From: a bacterium
Lineage (GTDB): Bacteria > Actinomycetota > Acidimicrobiia > Spongiisociales > Spongiisociaceae
Direction: 5' to 3'
NCBI GenBank assembly: GCA_028821235.1
Contig: JAPPGV010000063.1
Span: 1 to 54,170 of the forward strand
DNA length: 54,170 nucleotides
Part shown: in pieces, positions 8,034 through 54,170 of the stretch
How positions within the stretch are numbered: position 1 is the first letter of the stretch
Layout: every line of letters begins with the position of its first letter
Notes under the pieces: model-generated
What the model was told of the DNA's origin: nothing
Databases searched by the model: none
The model's input: only the letters and a program-made list of their open reading frames with translations
Made by a program: the position numbers and the translations under genes

Positions 8034-8165
8034 CTAGCCCGCTTGTTCTAGACCCGACACTCGGTCGGTTAGAGCTTCCCTGTCCGCCATAAGGCCGGTG
8101 ACGTTTCCTATCAGAGTAGTAACACTCTTCTCCATCTTTCCCATCCGGCGCTCTACCTTATCCAT
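8034..8165 (-). CDS. Coiled-coil microprotein coupled to xdh stop
   Basis: 43 codons from ATG 8165 to TAG 8034-8036. The peptide starts MDKVERRMGKMEKSVTTLIG and ends SGLEQAG; hydrophobic residues recur at heptad-like spacing (V, M, M, V, L, I, V, L), giving an amphipathic helix likely to form a short coiled coil. The ATG overlaps the stop codon of the Moco subunit by 8 nt (ATGGATAA), an arrangement typical of translational coupling. The frame stays open upstream to about 8217, so a TTG at 8174 could also start it. It resembles short dimerising partner helices, but no family is recognised. Whether it belongs with the hydroxylase or the downstream membrane protein is open. Confidence 0.5.
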   Translation of the reverse strand: MDKVERRMGKMEKSVTTLIGNVTGLMADREALTDRVSGLEQAG

Positions 8166-10413
8166 CCGGGTCAAGATGGACCCCAACGCGAGAACCGAGG
8201 GCGACGTGTTCGGGTCTCACGGGGGTGCGGTTGAGTTCCAGGCCGGTGGCGTCGCGGATGGCGGCTACCACTGCGGCCGTGGACGAGACGGTGGGCGGCT
8301 CCCCCACTCCCTTGGCGCCGAAGGGGCCGAACGAACTCGGTTCCTCGATCACCTCGATCTCTATGGGCGGGGCGTCCAGGAAGGTGGGCAGCAGGTAGTC
8401 GGTGAAGGTGGGGTTCTTGATCACGCCGTCCTCGACCACGATCTCCTCGAGGGTGGCCAGGCCGATCCCTTGCATGGTCCCGCCCTCTATCTGGCCCACC
8501 ACCGACCTGGGGTTGATCATGAAGCCCACGTCCTGGACCGTGTCGACCTGCACCACCCGGAAGAGCCCCAGTTCCTGGTCCACATCGACCACGGCCCTAT
8601 GCGCCGCGAAGGCGAAGTCCACGTGGATGTCGCCCTGGCCGTTGTCATCCGGCGCGTCCGTCTGCTGATGGTGGAACCGGGTGTGGTACTCGATGCTCTC
8701 CCGTCCGACCAGGTCCTCCATCGGAGTCACGAGGACTCCGTCCTTCCAGACTCCCTCGCCATCGAGTTCGTCGCCCCCGCCCCGCTCCAGGGCGATCCGG
8801 CGGGCCATCCGCGCCGCCTCCATGACCGCTCCCCCGGTCATCTGGGTCTGGCGGGAGGCCGACGTGGAGCCGGCCGACCCGATCTTGGACGTGTCGTCGT
8901 AGTAGACCACCACATCCTCGATGCCGAGGACGGTCCGTGCGATCTGCGCGCACGCCATTCCGAGACCCTGGCCCACCTCGACCGCCGCCGTGTGCACCTC
9001 CACACCGAACGGGGTTATGGCGACCCTGGCCTCCGCGTAGTCGTCGAAGCCGCCCGAGAAGCAGAGGTTCTTGAGCCCGACCGCGTACCCGACCCCCCGC
9101 CTCACCATCGGCCGGGAGGTGGTCAGCCCGGTACCGCCCGGTAACAGGCGTGGATCGTCGCTGCGGTTCTCATCCGGCAGGGGCATGCGGCGAAGCCTCT
9201 CGAGAATCTCTGTGACCGGCGCCGACGTGTCGATCACCTGCCCCGATGTGGCCAGAGGATCCCCGCGGCGCACGGCGTTGTGGATCCTGAGCTCCACCCG
9301 GTCCATGCCCAAGGCATCGGCCAGCTTGTCCATCTGGGCCTCGTGACCGAAGCAGGCCTGCACCGCCCCGAAGCCCCGCATCGCTCCGCAGGGCGGGTTG
9401 TTGGTCCGTACGGCCACCCCTTCCACCGACACCGAGTCGCACCGGTAGGGACCGGCGGCGTGGTAGACAGCGTTGCCCACTACCGAGTCGCTGGTCGAGC
9501 GGTAGGCGCCCCCGTCGATGATGATCCTCGCCTCGATGCGGCGGAGGGTTCCGTCGGGATCGGCCTCATGGCGCATCCACAGCTGGGCCGGATGGCGGTG
9601 GACGTGGCCCACGAAGCTCTCCGCCCGGCTGTACTCCATCTTCACTGGCCGTCCCGTGTACAGGGCGAGCAGGCAGAGGTGGATCTGGAGGCTGACATCC
9701 TCCCGCGCCCCGAAAGCGCCCCCGACCCCGGCATGGTGGACCCGCACCATGTCCTCGTCCACCCCCAGGCCGGCCACGATCTGATCACGGTCCACATGGG
9801 TCCACTGGGTGGCGATGTGGAGATCGACCCCGCCCTGCCCGTCGGGAATCGCCAGGCCGGACTCGGTGCCGAGCGGGGCCTGGTCCTGCATCCCCACCTC
9901 GTAGTAGCCCTCCACGACCACGGCCCCGGACGCATCCTGGGGGCCTCGCCGACATCTGGCCCGGTGGAACGCGGAGTCCCGGCGGTCGGCCTCCTCCGGG
10001 TCGGTGAGCGGCTCCAGCACCTCGTACTCGATCTCGATGGCTTCCACCGCCCGGCGAGCGGTCTCGGGGTTGTCAGCCGCGACCAGCGCCACCGCCTGGC
10101 CCCAGTACTCGACCAGGTCCGTGGCGAGGATCGGCTGGTCCGTGGACTCCAGACCGAAGGCATTGAGACCCGGGACGTCGTCGCCGACGAGGACGGCATG
10201 GACGCCGGTCATGGCCACGGCAGGGCCGATGTCGAGCCCGGTGATCCTCGCCTTCGGATGGGGGCTCCGGAGGGTGGCGCCGAAGAGCATGCGGTCCATG
10301 TAGAGATCGCCCGAGTAGAGGTAGGTACCGTCCACCTTCGGGATCCCGTCGGTTCGGGAGGTCGACTCGCCGACGCCATCCCGGACGGTGCGGGACCTCA
10401 CCCGGGTGGTCAT
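8158..10413 (-). CDS. Xanthine dehydrogenase-type molybdopterin subunit
   Basis: 751 aa, the usual size for the large subunit of three-subunit molybdenum hydroxylases (compare PucD/XdhA). The start is ATG 10413, which forms an ATGA overlap with the 2Fe-2S gene; the frame is open further upstream, but that stretch is the other gene. Domain order: a fold with GKVDG-like IPKVDGTYLYSGDL at the N-terminus, then Moco-binding domains. The substrate loop reads AMRGFGAVQ (Met345-Arg346), as in xanthine/purine enzymes, and lacks the AYRCSF loop of CO dehydrogenase. The catalytic glutamate is E705 in KGVGEPP. It would hydroxylate a purine or another N-heterocycle in the cytoplasm. The exact substrate is not determined by sequence. 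Confidence 0.88.
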   Translation of the reverse strand: MTTRVRSRTVRDGVGESTSRTDGIPKVDGTYLYSGDLYMDRMLFGATLRSPHPKARITGLDIGPAVAMTGVHAVLVGDDVPGLNAFGLESTDQPILATDLVEYWGQAVALVAADNPETARRAVEAIEIEYEVLEPLTDPEEADRRDSAFHRARCRRGPQDASGAVVVEGYYEVGMQDQAPLGTESGLAIPDGQGGVDLHIATQWTHVDRDQIVAGLGVDEDMVRVHHAGVGGAFGAREDVSLQIHLCLLALYTGRPVKMEYSRAESFVGHVHRHPAQLWMRHEADPDGTLRRIEARIIIDGGAYRSTSDSVVGNAVYHAAGPYRCDSVSVEGVAVRTNNPPCGAMRGFGAVQACFGHEAQMDKLADALGMDRVELRIHNAVRRGDPLATSGQVIDTSAPVTEILERLRRMPLPDENRSDDPRLLPGGTGLTTSRPMVRRGVGYAVGLKNLCFSGGFDDYAEARVAITPFGVEVHTAAVEVGQGLGMACAQIARTVLGIEDVVVYYDDTSKIGSAGSTSASRQTQMTGGAVMEAARMARRIALERGGGDELDGEGVWKDGVLVTPMEDLVGRESIEYHTRFHHQQTDAPDDNGQGDIHVDFAFAAHRAVVDVDQELGLFRVVQVDTVQDVGFMINPRSVVGQIEGGTMQGIGLATLEEIVVEDGVIKNPTFTDYLLPTFLDAPPIEIEVIEEPSSFGPFGAKGVGEPPTVSSTAAVVAAIRDATGLELNRTPVRPEHVALGSRVGVHLDPDG

Positions 10414-44044: not shown

Positions 44045-45265
<1,221 letters not shown>

Positions 45266-45584
45266 ACCAACGCTCCCGACCGTACGCGCCACGCGCCACA
45301 AAGGAGAAGCTTCCAGGCGCTTGTTGGACACGTTGTTAGGACGGCGGATTGACTCTTGACGACCTCTGACCACCAACCCAACCGCTACGTTGCCGGCCTT
45401 CCGGTCTATAACTAGACAGCTGCCAGATGCCCCTACATTCAGCCATTGCCCTATGACCCTGGGACGCAAGACCCGGCACGACCTCTGCCTGAAAGCAATA
45501 CTCAAATAATAAGTTGACACTACTATCTATCGTAACTAATCCGGCCTCCTTGGTATACGAGTTCGACCTCGGTAACATGCAGCC
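45266..45584 (+). other. 319-bp gap upstream of the TetR gene
   Basis: No convincing gene. The last ~100 bp are much more AT-rich than the surroundings and contain the promoter/operator-like element at 45512-45526. An open frame on the minus strand (45336-45578) has no family resemblance and covers the promoter, so it is not counted. Confidence 0.5.
45512..45526 (+). promoter_or_regulatory. Putative TetR operator, site 1 (autoregulatory)
   Basis: AGTTGACACTACTAT, 58 bp before the TetR ATG. It matches site 2 (AGTTGCAACTACAAT) at 12 of 15 positions. It ends in TACTAT, usable as a -10 box, and contains TTGACA. The position suggests autoregulation. Confidence 0.5.
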
Positions 45585-46244
45585 ATGTCCACGACGGGAG
45601 ACCAGGCACCTGGCCGGCCCCGCGTGCAGAGTCGAAAAAGCAAGGCAGATCGGTTAACCAAGCTGCTGTTGCAAGCCGCATCTGAGGAGTTCATCGCACG
45701 CGGCTATGAGGCGGCCCGCGTCAGCGACATTGCCCGCCGGGTGGGCGTAACGTCAGGCGCCGTCTACGCGCGGTGGCCCAACAAGACCGACGTGATCGTC
45801 GCCGCCCTCGAGTACATGTTCGAACAGATCCTCCCCGATGAGGAACTCGAGCACCTCGGCGATGCCGAGGGGTCACCGGCCACCATGTTGGCGATGCTGG
45901 GGACGAATCTCCTGCACTTCGATCCGAACAAGGAAGTTGTGGTCCAAGTGTTCGGTAGTGCCCGTAACAACGAAGCGATCCGCACCTCCCTTGTCGCATA
46001 CCTCAACAAAGAGGCCGAACAGCTGAGCCGATACGTAGAGCAGGCCAAGGACGACGGGCTGTTTGACCCCGAAATCAGCACCGCCGCCGTCACTCTGCTG
46101 TGCCAGTCAATCGGTATTGGCGCCCACCTGCTGCTGTCAGCAGGCCTCGACGACCGCCACGTACCCACCACAGTCGAGTGGGAATCGCTGCTCTGGACTC
46201 TTATGAGCGCCGCTATCCCCGCCGAGTCCTCCGGGGCCGCGTAG
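45585..46244 (+). CDS. TetR family transcriptional regulator
   Basis: 219 aa. Helix-turn-helix at about residues 22-68: KADRLTKLLLQAASEEFIARGYEAARVSDIARRVGVTSGAVYARWPNKTDVIVAAL, a clear TetR_N domain with recognition helix TSGAVYARW. The C-terminal ligand domain (about 75-215) has no specific subfamily match recognised. It is followed by a gap and then by two large surface-protein genes on the same strand. The three genes share an AGTTG..ACTAC.AT element, so this regulator is the natural candidate to bind it (inference). Confidence 0.9.
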   Translation: MSTTGDQAPGRPRVQSRKSKADRLTKLLLQAASEEFIARGYEAARVSDIARRVGVTSGAVYARWPNKTDVIVAALEYMFEQILPDEELEHLGDAEGSPATMLAMLGTNLLHFDPNKEVVVQVFGSARNNEAIRTSLVAYLNKEAEQLSRYVEQAKDDGLFDPEISTAAVTLLCQSIGIGAHLLLSAGLDDRHVPTTVEWESLLWTLMSAAIPAESSGAA

Positions 46245-46583
46245 ACCAAGCAGTCCCCACCCCACCTTCGCCTAGGTCCAGCTTCCTGATCTGGGGGATC
46301 CGCTTGTTCATCCTCCTGAAGGACCCACCGTGAACTCCCGGTGGAGGTCGGACCGGACCATTCTCAATCGGCGGCGCTGGGACGCGGTTGAACGACGATT
46401 GCGGCCGGGCCTCACTGCTTCGGAGACGGAGGCACCTAGAGGCTGCGTAGCGGAGTTGCGTCTCTTCTGACCCGATGACCCGGTCACTGCGGGCAGTCAA
46501 GGGATAAAACTGTAGTTGCAACTACAATTTGTTACCATCTCGCCCGTTGTGTTCGACAGGAGCCCTCTGGGAGACACCAACTG
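46245..46583 (+). other. 339-bp gap between TetR and the giant surface protein
   Basis: Contains a hairpin with arms CCACCG (46325-46330) and CGGTGG (46339-46344), a possible terminator for the TetR gene, and near its end the operator/promoter element at 46511-46528. No reading frame with family resemblance was found. Confidence 0.5.
46511..46528 (+). promoter_or_regulatory. Putative operator/promoter, site 2 (perfect palindrome)
   Basis: TGTAGTTGCAACTACA (46511-46526) is a perfect 16-bp palindrome, and its right arm runs into TACAAT (46523-46528), a good -10 box, 55 bp before the ATG of the giant surface protein. Binding of a dimeric repressor here would block the promoter. Confidence 0.65.
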
Positions 46584-49500
46584 ATGGATCTGCTGGGGAG
46601 TCGCGTTCGGCGTCCGGTGGTCCGGGGATTGGCGGCTGTCGTCATGCTGGCTTCGGTGCTGGTGCCCGCGGATCCGGTGGCCGTGGCCCAGCAGGGCACG
46701 CCGTACGGGGACGTTGCTCCCGGCGCCTTCTACGCGGAGGCAGTGACCGCGCTGGCCGCCGATGGGGTGTTCGCGGGCACCGAGTGCGCCGAGGGATTCT
46801 GCCCCGCGGATTCGCTGGATCGGGCGACCATGGCGGTGTGGACGGTGCGCGTTCTGGACGGGCAGGACCCCCCCGGCGTCATCTCGACGCGCTTCGCCGA
46901 TGTGGACGGGACGCATCCTTTTGGTGCGTTCATCGAGCGCTTCGCCGAACTCGAAGTCACCAGAGGCTACGACGACACCAACTACTGCCCCGACGGCACT
47001 GTGACCCGCGCCCAGATGGCCGTGTTCCTGTCGCGCGCGTTCGATCTCGCAGCGGGACCCGACCCCGGTTTCGGCGATGTGAGGCCGGACGCCTGGTACG
47101 CAGCCGATGTCGCCAAGCTGGCCGCATCCGGCATCACAGCGGGTTGCGGCGACGGCGCCAACTACTGCCCCGGCGACAGCGTGACACGCGCCCAAATGGC
47201 GTTGTTCCTCGCCCGCGCCCTGGAATCCCCCGAAGAAGACCCCGGCCACGTAGAAGAAGCCGCCCCGGCCGTCGGCGGAGGGTTGGGCGGCGGAGGAGGC
47301 GGCGGTGGCTCCGGTGGCGGTGGCGGCGGCTCCGGTGGTGGTGGCGGCGGCACCCAGATCACCAGCCAGCAACGGACGGTAGAAGCCCCGGGCGTGCCCC
47401 GGAACTTGGTGGTGGCCGTGGAGGGCCACACCACTCTCGAGGTCGGCTGGGATGCGCCCCACAGCGACGGCGGCGACTCGAACCTCTCGTACGTGGTGCA
47501 GCGGCGGGCCGGGGCGACGGACGGCTGGTCCACCTTGAACGTGGACCAGACACTGTCCGACACGGGCCTCGGCCACCGGGCCGAGATCACGAACCTGGTG
47601 AACGGCGTGATCTACCAGATCCAGGTGGCCGCCCGCAACGGTGGCGGGACCGGACCATGGTCCGCCGTGGTCGAGGGTGAGCCGACGGCCACCGACCCTC
47701 CGGAGCGACCGTCCAGCCTTTCGATCCGACCCGGCAGCGAACAGTTGGCGGTGTCGTGGCCGGCATCCTCTGACCTGCGTGACTTTGCCTCGGTGACCTA
47801 CGAGATCGGGTACCGGGAGTCGGGCGGCGGCTGGACGACGTTCGCGTCCGATGAGACGGGCAGGTCGGTGACGATCACCAACCTGGACAACGGCGTCGCC
47901 TACGACGTGCGGGTTGCGTCCAAGTACGAGAACCTGACCAGCACCTATACCGAGGGTACGGGAACGCCTGTCGGGAGCCGGCCGAGCCTGCCCCAGTACG
48001 TGACGGAGCCCGCCGGCAACGGCGAACTCTCGCTGTCGTGGCAGGCGCCGGACAACCTCGGCGGGTACGACATCTCGTTCGTGACCTATTCGGTGCAGTA
48101 CCGCAGAGGCCGCAGCGGGAGCTTCACCCCGTTCACTTTCGACGGCACGCAGACGTCGGTGACCATCACCGGCCTCGACAACGGCGTCGAGTACCAGGTG
48201 CAGGTAGCGGCCAAGACCCCGGCCGGCTCCAGCAGCTACGTCACGAGAACGGCCACCCCGAAGGGGACCGCCCCCGGCGCGCCGACGATCGACACGGTGA
48301 CGGCCGGCAACGGGCGGCTGACGGTGGAGTGGAGCGCTCCGTCGAACACCGGCGGGTACGCCGACTCGTTCCTGCGCTACTCGGTCGAGTACCGCAAGAC
48401 GGCAAGCACCGGCGATTGGACGGTCTTCGCGGCGTCGCTGTCGTCGCGGTCGTCGACCATCACCGGCTTGGAGAACGGAGTCTCCTACGACGTCCAGGTC
48501 GCGGCCTCCAACCCGGCCGGCGCCGGCGACTACAGCTCCCCGCGTTCGCGCACCCCGGAGGGCACCGCACCCGGCAAGCCCGGCAGCGTCCGGGTGACAG
48601 CGGGCAACGGCGAGTTGGGGGTCGTCTGGAACAAGCCGTCCACCGGCGGGTACGCCGACTCGTTCCTGACCTATGACGTGCAGTACCGGCGAGCCGACGC
48701 CGACACCGCCGATCCCTGGCTGAACGGCCCCCAGGGAGTGACAGGCACCTCCGCCACCATCGCCAGCCTGAGCAACGGCGTGGCCTACGACGTGCAGGTC
48801 CAGGCGAACAACCCGATCGGTCCCAGCGGCTACACCAACCCGGTGGAGGGCACGCCGGTGGGCAACGTGTCCGGCGTGCCGACCAGCGTGTCGGTGACCG
48901 CCGGCCAATCCGGTGAGTTGGAGGTGTCGTGGACCGCGCCGTCGGCGACCGGCGGCTACGACGTCTCGCAGCTGACCTATTCGGTCCAGTACCGCCGGGG
49001 TACCACAGGAGGGTGGACCACGTTCGCCTCGGCAGCGACGGGCACGTCGACGACGATCACCGGTTTGGACAACGGCTTCGAATACCAGGTGCAAGTCGCC
49101 ACCAGGAACCCGGCGAACCTCCTCAGCCCCTACAGCGCCGCGAAGTCGGCGACGCCCGAGGGTGACGCTCCCGGCAAGCCGACCGGGGTGTCGGTCACGG
49201 CCGGCAAGAACCGGCTGTCGGTGTCGTGGAGCGCTCCGACCGGCACCGGCGGCTACGCCGCTTCGTTCTTGACGTACACCGTCGAGATCCGGGAAGGAAG
49301 CAGCGGAACATGGTCCGATGATGGGGTGACCGTGTCGGGGCGGACGGCGACGATCACCGGGCTGGACAACGGGGTGGATTACCAGGTGCAGGTGGAGACG
49401 GCGAGCCCGGCCGGCACCAGCGGTTTCACCGATCCTCCGGTGGAGGGCACGCCGGTGGGAGACCGGCCTGGGGCTCCGACGATCAGCGGGGTCACAGAAG

Positions 49501-52500
49501 GCGACGGTCTGCTCACGGTGTCGTGGGACGCGCCGACAGACACCGGCGGCTATGACGTCTCGTTCCTGTCATATGTCGTCGAGTACCGCAAGGGCAGCAC
49601 CGGGTCCTTCACTACGTTCGCTTCCGCCGAGACAGGCACAACGGTGACAATCCCGTCGCTGGACAACGGCTACCAGTACCAGGTGCGGGTTGCGACCAAC
49701 AACCCGACGAACCTCCCCAGCCCCTACGCAACGGCCACCGGCACCCCGGAAGGGCGTGCCCCGGACCCGCCGACCAACGTGTCCGTCAGCGCGCCCGCAA
49801 ACCAGGCAAACCAGCTCGAGGTCTCGTGGGACGCGCCGACAGGCACCGGTGGCTATGACGTCTCGTTCCTGTCGTATGTGGTCGAATACCGGGAGTCGGA
49901 CACAGCCGGGAGTTGGCTCGCTGCCGGGGTCAGCATCTCGGGGACAATGGCCACGATCACCGGTCTGGACAACGGGATCCAGTATGACGTGCAGGTCGCG
50001 GCCACCAACCCGGCCGATACCAGCGGCTTCGCCTCGGACAGCGGCACGCCGGTGGGGACCGCGCCCGGCGCGCCCGGCAGCCTCTCGGTGCAGGCGGGCC
50101 AGGGTGGTGAGCTGCTGGTCTCGTGGGCGGTTCCGTCGAACACCGGCGGGTACGCCGACTCGTTCCTGACCTACGACGTGCAGTACCGCCGTGCCGACGC
50201 CGACGCCGCCGATCCCTGGACAGACGGCCCCCAGAACGTGACCGGCACCTCGACGACGATCACCGGCCTCGACAACGGGGTGGCCTACGACGTGCAGGTC
50301 CTGGCGGAGAACCCGGCCGGAGCCAGCGGCTACACCACCCCGAAGGAGGGCACGCCGTCCGGCACCGAGCCCAGCGCGGTCCGCAACCTTGCCGTGACCG
50401 CGGGCGACACCAAACTCGACGTGTCGTGGGACGCGCCCGCCGACAACGGCGGGTACTCGACGCTGACCTACCGGGTCCAGCACCGCAAGCGGTACCACAG
50501 CGGATCCTGGTCCAGCGCCGGGGTGACCATCACCGGGACCACCGCCGAGATCACCGGCCTCGACAACGGCCAGGAGTACGACGTGCGGGTCAGGGCCAGC
50601 AACGATGCCGGCCACGGTCCCTACACGAGGGTCTCCGCCACACCGGAGGGGACACTGCCGGGGACGCCGGGCAACCTGATGGTCGAGGCTAAGAACAAGC
50701 AACTCAAGCTCACGTGGGACGCCCCGACCGACGGCGGGTACGACTCGCTGAGTTACGTGGTCGAGTACCGCACCGGCAGCGAAGAGTGGCGTGTCTTCGG
50801 CGAGTCGGCCGGCAACAGCACCAACACGGAGACAACGATCAGCCGCCTGTTCAACGGCACGTCCTACGACGTGCGGGTCTTCGCCAAGAACGCGCTGGGC
50901 AGCAGCACCGCAGCCACTTCCACAGGAACTCCGGTGGGAACGCTGCCAGGCGCCCCAAGACACGTGGCCGCCCGCCCGGGCCACGAGTCGCTGGACATCA
51001 CCTGGAGCGCGCCCCAGAACACCGGCGGGTACGGCTCGGCCACCCTGACCTACACCGTCGAGTTCAAGCAGAGCGGCAGCACCGACGCCTTCTCCGACAC
51101 CGGCGTGACCGTCACCGGGACGTCGGCGGCGATCACCGGTCTCACCAACGGCACGGCGTACGAGGTGCGGGTGGGCGCGTCGAACGGGGCCGGCGCCGGC
51201 ACCGCCTACGGCACCGTCACCGCGACGCCGAACAAGAGCTTCAAGCCGCGCGACGTGGTGGTGACGGGCGGTAGCGGCAGCCTGGAGGTGGCGTGGTCGC
51301 CGCCCGCCGCACCCAGCAGCGAGATCGACAGCTACGACATCCAGTACCGGTTGAACGGCACCCAGACCTGGACCGAGGTAGCCGATGTCACCTCGCCGCA
51401 CACTATCTCCTCGCTGACCGCCAACGCCTCCTACGACGTGCAGGTGGGCACCAACGACACGTCGGCCAGCGCGACCGTCTGGTCCGACACCGTCACCGTG
51501 TCGGCCCGTCCGGCACCGCCGGCAACGTGGATAAGCGACTGGGCCCGGATGAACGAGGGCAAGCCCAGAGTCCGCTGGGGCGTCGTGGGGGGCGCGAACG
51601 CGCCGACTGGATACAAGATCCAGTGGAAGCGCGAGGGCGAGGACTGGGATCCCGTCAACCGGCAGATGACCGTGAACCAGCCCTCGGGCACCGCCAGGGA
51701 GATGGAGGTCGACGTCGACAGCGGAAGGGACAACGACGGCGACGGCACGGTGTGGGATATCCGGATCATCCCTTACAACCTCGGCGGCGACGGCCCCGCC
51801 CGCAGCATCGCCTACACCCAGCTCACCAACGAAGCCGAGTACAACGTCTGGGCGGAGGAGAACATCATCGAACCGCTCGCGGCCGATTGGCAGTGGCTGG
51901 GCACCGCGTGGGACTTCCTGGACTCACGGCCGGGCGTGAACATCGAGCTGGAAGGCGGGGGAGGGAGCTTCGCGGGGCGCGTCAGCATCACCGTGCACAA
52001 CTCGCCGACCCCAGCCAACCGCAACCTGCCCGTCGCGACGTTCGGTGGCGTAACCCTCAACCAGGCACCGAGACGAGCCACCGCCACGCACGTTTCTACG
52101 GTCGTGCACGAGCTGGCCCACGTGTACACCCAGACGACCGACATAGCGGCCTACATCGACGACGTCGCACCGATCGGCATGCTCTACCTGTACATCAACG
52201 AGGAGTACCCGAACTCCCCGTTCGACGCCGACTGCTACGCCCACGAGCTGATGGCCGACCTGATCACCGCCGTGGTGATGAAGGACGCCGACGAGGCCGC
52301 CCGGAACGGCGACCTGCCCTCCCTGTTCGAACTGTCCGGATTCCTGAGCCAGTACTTGCTGTACTGGCGCTCGTGCGCTCGCATTGACCATGACGAGCCG
52401 AACGCCGATGACGAGGCGTTCATCCGCAGCGTGTTGAGCGGCAGCATCCCCGACTGGTTCACCGACACCTACGGCGGAGACGCCGGCGACGTCTACTCGG

Positions 52501-52712
52501 CCGACTACGACGGCAACGCGGCCCTGGTGTGGAAGCACCTCCGAAGGTTCCAGGCAACCGACTCGACCAACGCCAGCTTCCGGGTCGTCCCCCTGAACTA
52601 CTTCAGCAAACTCTTCGGCGGGTACTGCAGCAACTCCGCCGCCACCAACGAGGCCAAGACCAAGGGGATCCCCACCGCGGGCCGCAACCCCTGGGCCAAC
52701 GGAGGCTGCTAG
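46584..52712 (+). CDS. Giant SLH-Fn3-metalloprotease surface protein
   Basis: 2,042 aa. Signal peptide with likely cleavage after AVA (residue 35). Three SLH-like motifs at about 41-91, 102-154 and 162-213, each ending in T/D-RAxMAvfxxRaf and with paired cysteines (GTECAEGFC, NYCPDG, GCGDGANYC), suited to cell-wall attachment. A Gly/Ser linker spans 231-256. About fifteen fibronectin type III domains of 95-102 residues run from 265 to about 1757, with repeated GNGELxVSWxAPxxTGGY..SFLTYxVxYR and ITGLDNGVxYDVQV; the last is divergent. The C-terminal ~285 residues hold VVHELAHVYTQT (H1842, E1843, H1846) and CYAHELMADLI (E1888, 42 residues on), the gluzincin zinc-ligand pattern. Likely a wall-anchored, long-stalked protease or adhesin. 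Substrate unknown. Confidence 0.85.
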   Translation: MDLLGSRVRRPVVRGLAAVVMLASVLVPADPVAVAQQGTPYGDVAPGAFYAEAVTALAADGVFAGTECAEGFCPADSLDRATMAVWTVRVLDGQDPPGVISTRFADVDGTHPFGAFIERFAELEVTRGYDDTNYCPDGTVTRAQMAVFLSRAFDLAAGPDPGFGDVRPDAWYAADVAKLAASGITAGCGDGANYCPGDSVTRAQMALFLARALESPEEDPGHVEEAAPAVGGGLGGGGGGGGSGGGGGGSGGGGGGTQITSQQRTVEAPGVPRNLVVAVEGHTTLEVGWDAPHSDGGDSNLSYVVQRRAGATDGWSTLNVDQTLSDTGLGHRAEITNLVNGVIYQIQVAARNGGGTGPWSAVVEGEPTATDPPERPSSLSIRPGSEQLAVSWPASSDLRDFASVTYEIGYRESGGGWTTFASDETGRSVTITNLDNGVAYDVRVASKYENLTSTYTEGTGTPVGSRPSLPQYVTEPAGNGELSLSWQAPDNLGGYDISFVTYSVQYRRGRSGSFTPFTFDGTQTSVTITGLDNGVEYQVQVAAKTPAGSSSYVTRTATPKGTAPGAPTIDTVTAGNGRLTVEWSAPSNTGGYADSFLRYSVEYRKTASTGDWTVFAASLSSRSSTITGLENGVSYDVQVAASNPAGAGDYSSPRSRTPEGTAPGKPGSVRVTAGNGELGVVWNKPSTGGYADSFLTYDVQYRRADADTADPWLNGPQGVTGTSATIASLSNGVAYDVQVQANNPIGPSGYTNPVEGTPVGNVSGVPTSVSVTAGQSGELEVSWTAPSATGGYDVSQLTYSVQYRRGTTGGWTTFASAATGTSTTITGLDNGFEYQVQVATRNPANLLSPYSAAKSATPEGDAPGKPTGVSVTAGKNRLSVSWSAPTGTGGYAASFLTYTVEIREGSSGTWSDDGVTVSGRTATITGLDNGVDYQVQVETASPAGTSGFTDPPVEGTPVGDRPGAPTISGVTEGDGLLTVSWDAPTDTGGYDVSFLSYVVEYRKGSTGSFTTFASAETGTTVTIPSLDNGYQYQVRVATNNPTNLPSPYATATGTPEGRAPDPPTNVSVSAPANQANQLEVSWDAPTGTGGYDVSFLSYVVEYRESDTAGSWLAAGVSISGTMATITGLDNGIQYDVQVAATNPADTSGFASDSGTPVGTAPGAPGSLSVQAGQGGELLVSWAVPSNTGGYADSFLTYDVQYRRADADAADPWTDGPQNVTGTSTTITGLDNGVAYDVQVLAENPAGASGYTTPKEGTPSGTEPSAVRNLAVTAGDTKLDVSWDAPADNGGYSTLTYRVQHRKRYHSGSWSSAGVTITGTTAEITGLDNGQEYDVRVRASNDAGHGPYTRVSATPEGTLPGTPGNLMVEAKNKQLKLTWDAPTDGGYDSLSYVVEYRTGSEEWRVFGESAGNSTNTETTISRLFNGTSYDVRVFAKNALGSSTAATSTGTPVGTLPGAPRHVAARPGHESLDITWSAPQNTGGYGSATLTYTVEFKQSGSTDAFSDTGVTVTGTSAAITGLTNGTAYEVRVGASNGAGAGTAYGTVTATPNKSFKPRDVVVTGGSGSLEVAWSPPAAPSSEIDSYDIQYRLNGTQTWTEVADVTSPHTISSLTANASYDVQVGTNDTSASATVWSDTVTVSARPAPPATWISDWARMNEGKPRVRWGVVGGANAPTGYKIQWKREGEDWDPVNRQMTVNQPSGTAREMEVDVDSGRDNDGDGTVWDIRIIPYNLGGDGPARSIAYTQLTNEAEYNVWAEENIIEPLAADWQWLGTAWDFLDSRPGVNIELEGGGGSFAGRVSITVHNSPTPANRNLPVATFGGVTLNQAPRRATATHVSTVVHELAHVYTQTTDIAAYIDDVAPIGMLYLYINEEYPNSPFDADCYAHELMADLITAVVMKDADEAARNGDLPSLFELSGFLSQYLLYWRSCARIDHDEPNADDEAFIRSVLSGSIPDWFTDTYGGDAGDVYSADYDGNAALVWKHLRRFQATDSTNASFRVVPLNYFSKLFGGYCSNSAATNEAKTKGIPTAGRNPWANGGC
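47274..47351 (+). repeat. Gly/Ser linker repeat
   Basis: GGTGGC/GGCGGC hexamer-like repeats encode 26 nearly pure Gly/Ser residues between the SLH and Fn3 regions of the giant protein. Slippage here would alter linker length in frame. Confidence 0.8.
47376..51850 (+). repeat. Tandem array of about fifteen Fn3-encoding units
   Basis: Units of about 285-306 bp. Periodic landmarks are TCGTGGxACGCGCCG (SWDAP), ACCGGCGGGTACG (TGGY) and ATCACCGGCCTCGACAACGG (ITGLDNG). Units differ in sequence overall, but some blocks are nearly identical, notably 48641-48719 and 50141-50219 (79 bp with four mismatches), suggesting recent exchange or duplication between non-adjacent units. Confidence 0.8.
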
Positions 52713-52742
52713 CTCAGGAAGGCCGGCCAAGCTGGTGAGATA

Positions 52743-52761
52743 TAGTTGTCTCAACTACAAT
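52743..52761 (+). promoter_or_regulatory. Putative operator/promoter, site 3
   Basis: TAGTTGTCTCAACTACAAT: arms TAGTTG and CAACTA with a 3-bp spacer, then TACAAT (52756-52761) as -10 box, 48 bp before the likely TTG start at 52810. It differs from site 2 mainly in having a wider spacer. Confidence 0.6.
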
Positions 52762-52809
52762 GTAGGTCAGCAGTAGACGGAGCCCTGCCCGCATTGAGGA
52801 GTCTTGAGA

Positions 52810-54170
52810 TTGCCTGATCGGCCTAGCCCTGCATCGCATCGAGGTCCGGCGCGGCCGAAGCGGAGCCGGTGGTTGGCGGTCCTGGGCGTGGCCGCAGGAA
52901 TCATCGTCGCGGCGCTGGCGCCGACGACGGCGGCTACCCGTCCAGCGGATTCGCTCGCGCCTGCGGAGGTGGCTCAGGCGGCTCGGCCTGCGGCCGTGAC
53001 CGGGTTGAGCGTGCAGGCGGGCGACGCGCCCGGAGAGCTCCACGTCAGCTGGGATCCCCACCCGAACGGCGCAGTCGACTACCGGGTGAAGTGGGCCCGT
53101 GTCGGGACGAACTTCAAGTCGTACAAGAACACCGACTGGAACGCGTTCCCCGTCGACAACGAGTTGACGATCTCAGGGCTCTGGCCTGGCGAGTCCTACA
53201 AGGTCCAGGTGCGGGCCCGTTTCAGCGGTCCCAACGGCGAGTGGAGCCCGGTGGTCACCGGTACTGCGGCCGAGACGGCGCCGGAGCCCATCAAGGTGAC
53301 CGACCTGAAGTTGACGGATCTGTCCGGCCAGCCCCCCGAGAACAGCGGACCGGCCTACGCGGACGCGGCGTCCGTGGTGTGGTCGGCGACGCTCACGGTG
53401 GGGGTCGACGCCTCGCAGCCGCCGGGATCGGGCTACTCGCGATGGGCGGGGGTGGGCGACCTGTCGGAGCGAGGGCTCACGCTGGGCGGCACCTCGATGC
53501 GGGTGATGTTGATCGTGCAGATGGCGGGAGGCCTCTTCCTGGCTATGGACCGCGCCACCGACACGGACTTCACGCTCACCCTCGGCGATGCCGAGTTCGC
53601 AGCCGGCGAGAGCCTGGTCCCCGACACCGCCGGATCGGGCCGCTACTGGTGGGCGACCGACGCCGACCTCTGGGCGGTCGGCGAGGAGGTGGACGCCAGC
53701 ATCACCGCCGGCTCCGCAACGCTGGGCGAGCGGGCGACCGCGCCGCCGGTCGCATACTTCAGGCAAATGCCCGACCGCCACGACGGCACGGAGCCGTTCA
53801 CGTTGAGGCTGTACTTCGACCGGCAGCTGCCCGTCACCGCGGCCGCACTGAAGGACCACGCGCTGGAGACGGTCGGCGGGACGGTGACCGGTGTGTCCGC
53901 GGTGACGGACGGCTCGACACAGATCTGGGCGATCACTGTGCAGCCCGACGGGGCCGGCGACGTCACCGTCGCGCTGCCCGCCGGAGCGGCCTGTGACCAG
54001 CCCGGCGCGGTGTGCACCGCCGACGGTCAGAGGTTGCACAACAGCGCCCAGGCGACGGTGCCGGGTCCGTCCTCGGTCTCGGACGCGGTCGGGCAAAGGA
54101 CCACCCTGCTGGCCAGCGGCTCCTACCACACCTGCGTGATAGAGGCCGACGGCACCCTCACCTGCTGGGG
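52810..54170 (+). CDS. Secreted Fn3/RCC1-repeat protein (3' end outside window)
   Basis: 453 codons are visible and the frame is still open at the window end. TTG 52810 is preferred because GAGGAG lies eight bases upstream; TTG 52804 is too close to it. A basic N-terminus and the helix LAVLGVAAGIIVAALAPTTAA form a signal peptide ending near residue 40. An Fn3 domain spans about 63-157, and a beta domain with VVWSATLTVGVD spans about 165-310. A bacterial Ig-like domain with FTLRLYFDRQLP and VALPAGAACDQPGAVCTADGQRL follows at about 325-425. The last visible residues, LLASGSYHTCVIEADGTLTCWG, are the start of an RCC1 repeat, so a propeller probably follows. It shares the promoter element of the giant protein upstream. 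Confidence 0.8.
   Translation, partial: MPDRPSPASHRGPARPKRSRWLAVLGVAAGIIVAALAPTTAATRPADSLAPAEVAQAARPAAVTGLSVQAGDAPGELHVSWDPHPNGAVDYRVKWARVGTNFKSYKNTDWNAFPVDNELTISGLWPGESYKVQVRARFSGPNGEWSPVVTGTAAETAPEPIKVTDLKLTDLSGQPPENSGPAYADAASVVWSATLTVGVDASQPPGSGYSRWAGVGDLSERGLTLGGTSMRVMLIVQMAGGLFLAMDRATDTDFTLTLGDAEFAAGESLVPDTAGSGRYWWATDADLWAVGEEVDASITAGSATLGERATAPPVAYFRQMPDRHDGTEPFTLRLYFDRQLPVTAAALKDHALETVGGTVTGVSAVTDGSTQIWAITVQPDGAGDVTVALPAGAACDQPGAVCTADGQRLHNSAQATVPGPSSVSDAVGQRTTLLASGSYHTCVIEADGTLTCW

Follow-up and report, generated by a model that had tools for sequence, protein, structure and literature searches.

Autoregulated repressors of the TetR, AcrR, TtgR and FadR type carry a TetR_N domain in a TetR fold and act from a palindromic operator over the −10 box, both at their own promoter and at neighbouring genes, which are efflux or fatty-acid genes. 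In the TetR family, binding over the −10 box normally blocks polymerase. The locus described here resembles these systems in its regulator and its predicted operator and differs from them in its putative targets: giant surface proteins with SLH, Fn3 and RCC1 domains. Fibronectin, RCC1, cadherin and LRR proteins abound in sponge symbionts, where they are presumed to mediate host recognition. The targets considered here, with Fn3, RCC1, cadherin-like, LRR, Spondin_N and SLH domains, resemble such eukaryotic-like surface proteins. Fn3, LRR and cadherin proteins of this kind have been described in sponge symbionts (PMC9531527). Our literature search found neither published transcriptional control of such symbiont surface proteins nor an earlier description of this regulon.

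The window, that is, the whole stretch of 54,170 nucleotides analysed, is the complete contig C63 of a 3.6-Mb genome bin, and its source organism is an actinobacterium related to sponge-associated bacteria. The TetR-family regulator, P0001, has an N-terminal helix-turn-helix domain (PF00440, above its cut-off) and a recognition helix, TxGAVYxRWP, that is nearly invariant across its subfamily, which occurs in the genus of the window and in sponge-associated Acidimicrobiaceae MAGs. Its structure model is of high confidence in the DNA-binding domain only and of low confidence in the C-terminal part; with that restriction, Foldseek retrieves TetR structures (best E 2.1e-5, TM-score 0.62 by query). 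The best reading is that this predicted system belongs with the known autoregulated TetR-family repressors and that its targets are unusual. The closest NCBIfam model for all 17 members scanned is that of the ScbR/ArpA γ-butyrolactone receptors (NF041196), which covers P0001 over almost its full length at 58 bits, far below the curated cut-off of 150, and the best PDB sequence match of P0001, in the DNA-binding domain, is an MmfR-type chain (6srn). A small diffusible signal as ligand is thus a lead rather than a finding.

Downstream of the regulator gene lie two surface-protein genes. The SLH-Fn3 protein carries a zinc-protease-like HELAH motif at its C-terminus, as read in the translation, and the Fn3-RCC1 protein reaches about 1000 residues in relatives. 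For the third gene the most likely start is TTG 52810, which follows a conserved, well-spaced ribosome-binding site. Upstream of the regulator, the gene at 44045–45265 encodes a product with a very histidine-rich (HDHDH) N-terminus.

Features of the locus and of related loci, with candidate regulatory elements
Feature	Position	Strand	Remark
Site 1, candidate operator/−10 element of the TetR gene, TAAGTTGACACTACTAT	45510–45526	+	TACTAT 45521–45526; kept in five genomes of the genus
TetR-family regulator P0001, 219 aa	45585–46244	+	TetR_N 8e-14
Site 2, 24-bp near-palindrome around candidate core operator GTAGTTGCAACTAC (46512–46525)	46507–46530	.	putative −10 TACAAT 46523–46528
Giant exported SLH/multi-Fn3 protein, 2042 aa	46584–52712	+	Pfam SLH 4.7e-19, fn3 6.4e-130
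Site 3, conserved candidate operator core GTTGTCTCAACTACAAT	52745–52761	+	left extension gives 52743–52761; putative −10 TACAAT 52756–52761
GAGGAG ribosome-binding site before TTG start	52797–52802	+	conserved; sequence and alignment
Fn3-RCC1 surface protein gene, truncated by contig end	52810–54170	+	Pfam fn3 and RCC1_2
Fn3-RCC1 and Spondin_N loci compared between lineages	window 52810–54170; L147:9672–12659; L048:8617–12831; L232:2–2917
SLH-Fn3-protease fragments in three relatives	L050:9441–9911; L048 about 8100–8300; L334:2861–3378
TetR paralogue and divergent SLH gene, TGTAGTAACTACTATGTAG between	L051:38–1726 / 1824–2492; L053:484–2175 / 2273–2941

A common element upstream of three genes

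The first-pass annotation had placed one operator-like element 48–58 bp before each of three consecutive plus-strand genes, and both the sequences and the gaps are confirmed. Site 1 reads AGTTGACACTACTAT (45512–45526), site 2 reads AGTTGCAACTACAAT (46514–46528) and site 3 reads TAGTTGTCTCAACTACAAT (52743–52761), at 58, 55 and 48 nt from the respective starts, the last value assuming the TTG start. The TAC(A/T)AT ending proposed for each element is likewise present, as TACTAT at site 1 and TACAAT at sites 2 and 3. The perfect 16-bp palindrome reported for the second element, TGTAGTTGCAACTACA, was found at 46511–46526; it is enclosed by a 24-bp near-palindrome (92%). Comparison with relatives places the core of site 3 at GTTGTCTCAACTAC (52745–52758), which shifts its dyad relative to the earlier description, and only in the genus of the window are the TAGTTG-TCT-CAACTA arms present in full.

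All three elements can be described by one predicted operator, approximately GTWGTTNNAACTACWAT; its right half (TACAAT or TACTAT) would double as a −10 box. Site 1 is the weakest match (9 of 12 consensus positions). The consensus was refined on sites that include those tested, and tests made with it are not fully independent. No σ70-type −35 element was found around sites 1 and 2, and promoter use there is accordingly read from TACWAT alone. Since TACWAT closes every site at a promoter-like spacing and conservation is highest in the right half, the shared element might instead be a promoter element for a particular sigma factor, with no repressor involved. This is very improbable in view of the dyad symmetry, seen in the near-palindrome at site 2 and in tandem perfect 14-bp dyads in L147, of several sites that keep the dyad without a TACWAT facing the gene (L148:9878, L232), and of the restriction of the motif to few promoters.

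Distribution of the element within the genome

In the window, AGTTGNNACTACWAT with up to three mismatches gives nine matches against 3.45 expected, a number reached by none of 100 shuffles. The genome-wide motif scan that the first-pass annotation had proposed as a check was carried out with patterns allowing few mismatches, not with a weight matrix, and the motif proved not to be scattered at random but confined to a few promoters. Five matches to GTNNNNACTACWAT are present in the genome against none for the reversed control: sites 1–3, a position on C57 flanked by a paralogous TetR gene and an SLH gene divergent from it, and, on C143, a position in the interval that separates a divergent SLH-LRR gene from a nucleoside hydrolase-ABC transporter gene cluster. 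With up to one mismatch, GTNGTNNNNACTACWAT is confined to three places, namely site 2, site 3 and the SLH-LRR promoter on C143 (control, four strand hits), and the only exact match to GTAGTTNNAACTAC is site 2. The genome contains two instances of the pattern TAGTTGN{0,4}CAACTA, both in the window, and its rarity taken alone is weak evidence because the reversed control is equally rare (two places). In light of the shuffles and of the genome-wide scans against controls, a chance origin of the elements was rejected.

The small self-regulated regulon that had been proposed for the three genes gains comparative support, set out below, and is to be extended, as the C143 SLH-LRR gene and surface genes of relatives also carry the site. 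The extension does not reach all SLH genes, a candidate that was rejected: about a dozen further SLH genes in the genome lack the motif, their best score from −300 to +90 being 9.7 bits (some starts are uncertain), whereas the operator sites score 19–30 in leave-one-out.

Occurrence in other lineages

Five genomes of the genus, among them the window's own, encode the regulator, the other four proteins being 89–94% identical; site 1 is kept before its gene in all five and is unsupported outside the genus. At 51–61% identity the regulator recurs in the Acidimicrobiia MAGs SB0665_bin_5, SB0668_bin_28, SB0675_bin_25, SB0677_bin_3 and p16x63bins.58, which we take to be of sponge origin from their bin names and related literature, not from record titles. 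Paired TetR genes stand beside the Fn3-RCC1 gene in four of these five MAGs. In this other lineage, GTAGTTGAAACTAC lies 60 bp before a TetR gene, and the perfect dyads GTAGTTTAAACTAC and GTAGTTCAAACTAC stand in tandem near a giant Fn3 gene. Two perfect 14-bp dyads, 21 bp apart, occupy L147:8076–8110, with a TetR gene on one side and a giant Fn3 gene on the other.

Site 3 is conserved beyond the genus. Its core, GTTGTCTCAACTACAATG, is found unchanged upstream of the Fn3-RCC1 gene in SB0677_bin_3 and, in SB0668_bin_28, at the end of a contig on which the Fn3-RCC1 gene would be expected to follow; the site is identical in L220 and L221. In an alignment of six genomes from two lineages upstream of the Fn3-RCC1 gene, 16 of the 17 operator positions do not vary, in contrast to the flanks and the spacing. 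Across 15 genomes, exact matches to GTNGTNNNNACTACWAT lie at TetR or surface-gene promoters in ten cases out of ten, one of which (L220) is at a contig end with the downstream Fn3-RCC1 gene presumed. When the window was scanned with a matrix from the other lineage only, the top five ranks all fell at the three window sites, site 1 ranking fourth on the minus strand; this matrix is not wholly independent, its sites having been collected with a window-informed consensus. Conservation upstream of orthologues, on which the first-pass annotation had made its regulon depend, was therefore found for the TetR gene and for the Fn3-RCC1 gene, the latter including a distant lineage and a third family.

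An alternative reading takes the elements for AT-rich terminator hairpins, of the TAGT...ACTA kind, located just after stop codons. Such hairpins are common in the genus, 3–30 nt after stops and mostly between convergent genes, and site 3 itself sits 30 nt after the SLH-Fn3 stop and can fold (−9.1 kcal/mol, z −2.0). We rejected this reading as extremely unlikely because the site 3 orthologue lies between divergent genes in four genomes (G002, G138, G139 and G142), site 1 does not fold and no T-run follows site 3. Furthermore, no terminator match was obtained at sites 1 and 2, and it is the distance to the downstream start and the TACWAT that are kept, not the upstream neighbour. As an operator signature, TAGTNNNNACTA by itself was dropped: it is not more frequent than its control and for the most part points to post-stop hairpins, which TAGTTGN{0,4}CAACTA also picks up in relatives. 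Low-GC terminator-like hairpins of TAGTT/AACTA units, an unusual kind, were seen in L105, L107, L108, L113, L115, L128–L131 and L134 (sites near position 2700).

Among 395 genomes of the class, GTWGTNNNAACTACWAT has 14 matches against six for the control. Seven of the 14 are at regulon genes, and the remaining seven, with no visible link to the regulon, are probably chance matches, although a TetR gene of unrelated type adjoins one of them. The regulon matches include G117, from another family of the window's order, which was found in an unplanned test. The G117 contig encodes an Fn3-RCC1 protein 78% identical over 184 residues, a TetR protein 34% identical and a broken SLH-Fn3-protease with 92% identity over its last 61 residues; the predicted Fn3-RCC1 start is preceded at about 300 bp by the operator, and another element, GTTGTAGCCACTACTAT, is near the SLH remnant. 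In another family of the class, the site near 5477 of L336, GTAGTCACAACTACAAT, stands 37 bp before an unrelated TetR gene.

Further surface genes carry sites. SLH-GDSL genes do so in both main lineages (G007 and G142, 42% identical), the G007 site being a partial match, as does a C143-type SLH gene in G141 (47% identical). For the Spondin_N gene (89% identical) the site is clear in G142 and uncertain in G002 (L048:8317, TAGTATTGACTAC), because the upstream DNA there cannot be aligned with that of the G142 orthologue, whose site is better.

Between the two main lineages the Fn3-RCC1 proteins are 80–85% identical and the Spondin_N proteins 89%, as compared with 65–71% for RpoB and 51–61% for TetR. 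Because the surface proteins are more alike than RpoB, the operator-bearing surface genes have probably moved horizontally between lineages together with their operator. Fragments of the SLH-Fn3-protease gene at the locus in three relatives (G002, G007 and G117) indicate that gene turnover, by decay and replacement at one fixed position, continues there. An exchange of operator-bearing surface genes between orders, as appears to occur, would point to the way in which newly acquired surface proteins join existing control.

Predicted control of surface display

The TetR gene and the surface genes with their common promoter element very probably form a real control circuit, and we consider it likely that an autoregulated TetR repressor acts on an operator shared by the surface-display genes. 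From the sequences we infer binding, repression, use of the −10 box and induction by a ligand, as follows. P0001, or a close paralogue whose recognition helix is nearly identical, would bind the roughly palindromic operator and block RNA polymerase at three promoters, its own and those of the SLH-Fn3-protease and Fn3-RCC1 genes, and would act also at the SLH-LRR promoter on C143. Because TACAAT or TACTAT falls within the operator, the simplest action would be to deny polymerase access. Relief of repression by a ligand would lead to joint display of the surface proteins, and autoregulation would determine the amount of repressor. Some TetR-family proteins activate transcription, a mode compatible with the sequence here, and P0001 could in principle activate the surface genes from the same sites; with those sites covering the putative −10 box, we judge activation very unlikely and retain repression. 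With an operator that is short and specific and a regulator that can be named, this control of surface display becomes testable in vitro without culturing the organism.

A further, rather doubtful possibility is that genes for giant eukaryote-like surface proteins, with a common operator, cross orders of sponge-associated Acidimicrobiia and, once arrived, fall under a resident TetR protein that responds to an ScbR-like diffusible signal. Different symbionts would then turn on one and the same coat in response to a cue they have in common.

With two TetR genes at some loci and a paralogue in the window's own genome, there are several candidate binders. The C57 paralogue is 46–47% identical to P0001, has the same recognition-helix core and is associated with a related element, GTAGTAACTACTAT; together with the paired TetR genes of the other lineage, this is consistent with an operator that is real and bound mainly by another TetR protein, such as the C57 paralogue. 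We regard that assignment as unlikely, since the dyad of the C57 element differs from those of the window sites and P0001 both adjoins the window's targets and is kept with them. P0001 stands as the preferred candidate repressor. The presence of a paralogous TetR gene with a variant operator next to a further SLH gene also means that a regulon limited to the three neighbours, as originally described, has to be widened. The paralogue's element, TGTAGTAACTACTATGTAG, which in two genomes it shares with a divergent SLH gene, is kept in G002 and G007 too, where the neighbouring gene differs.
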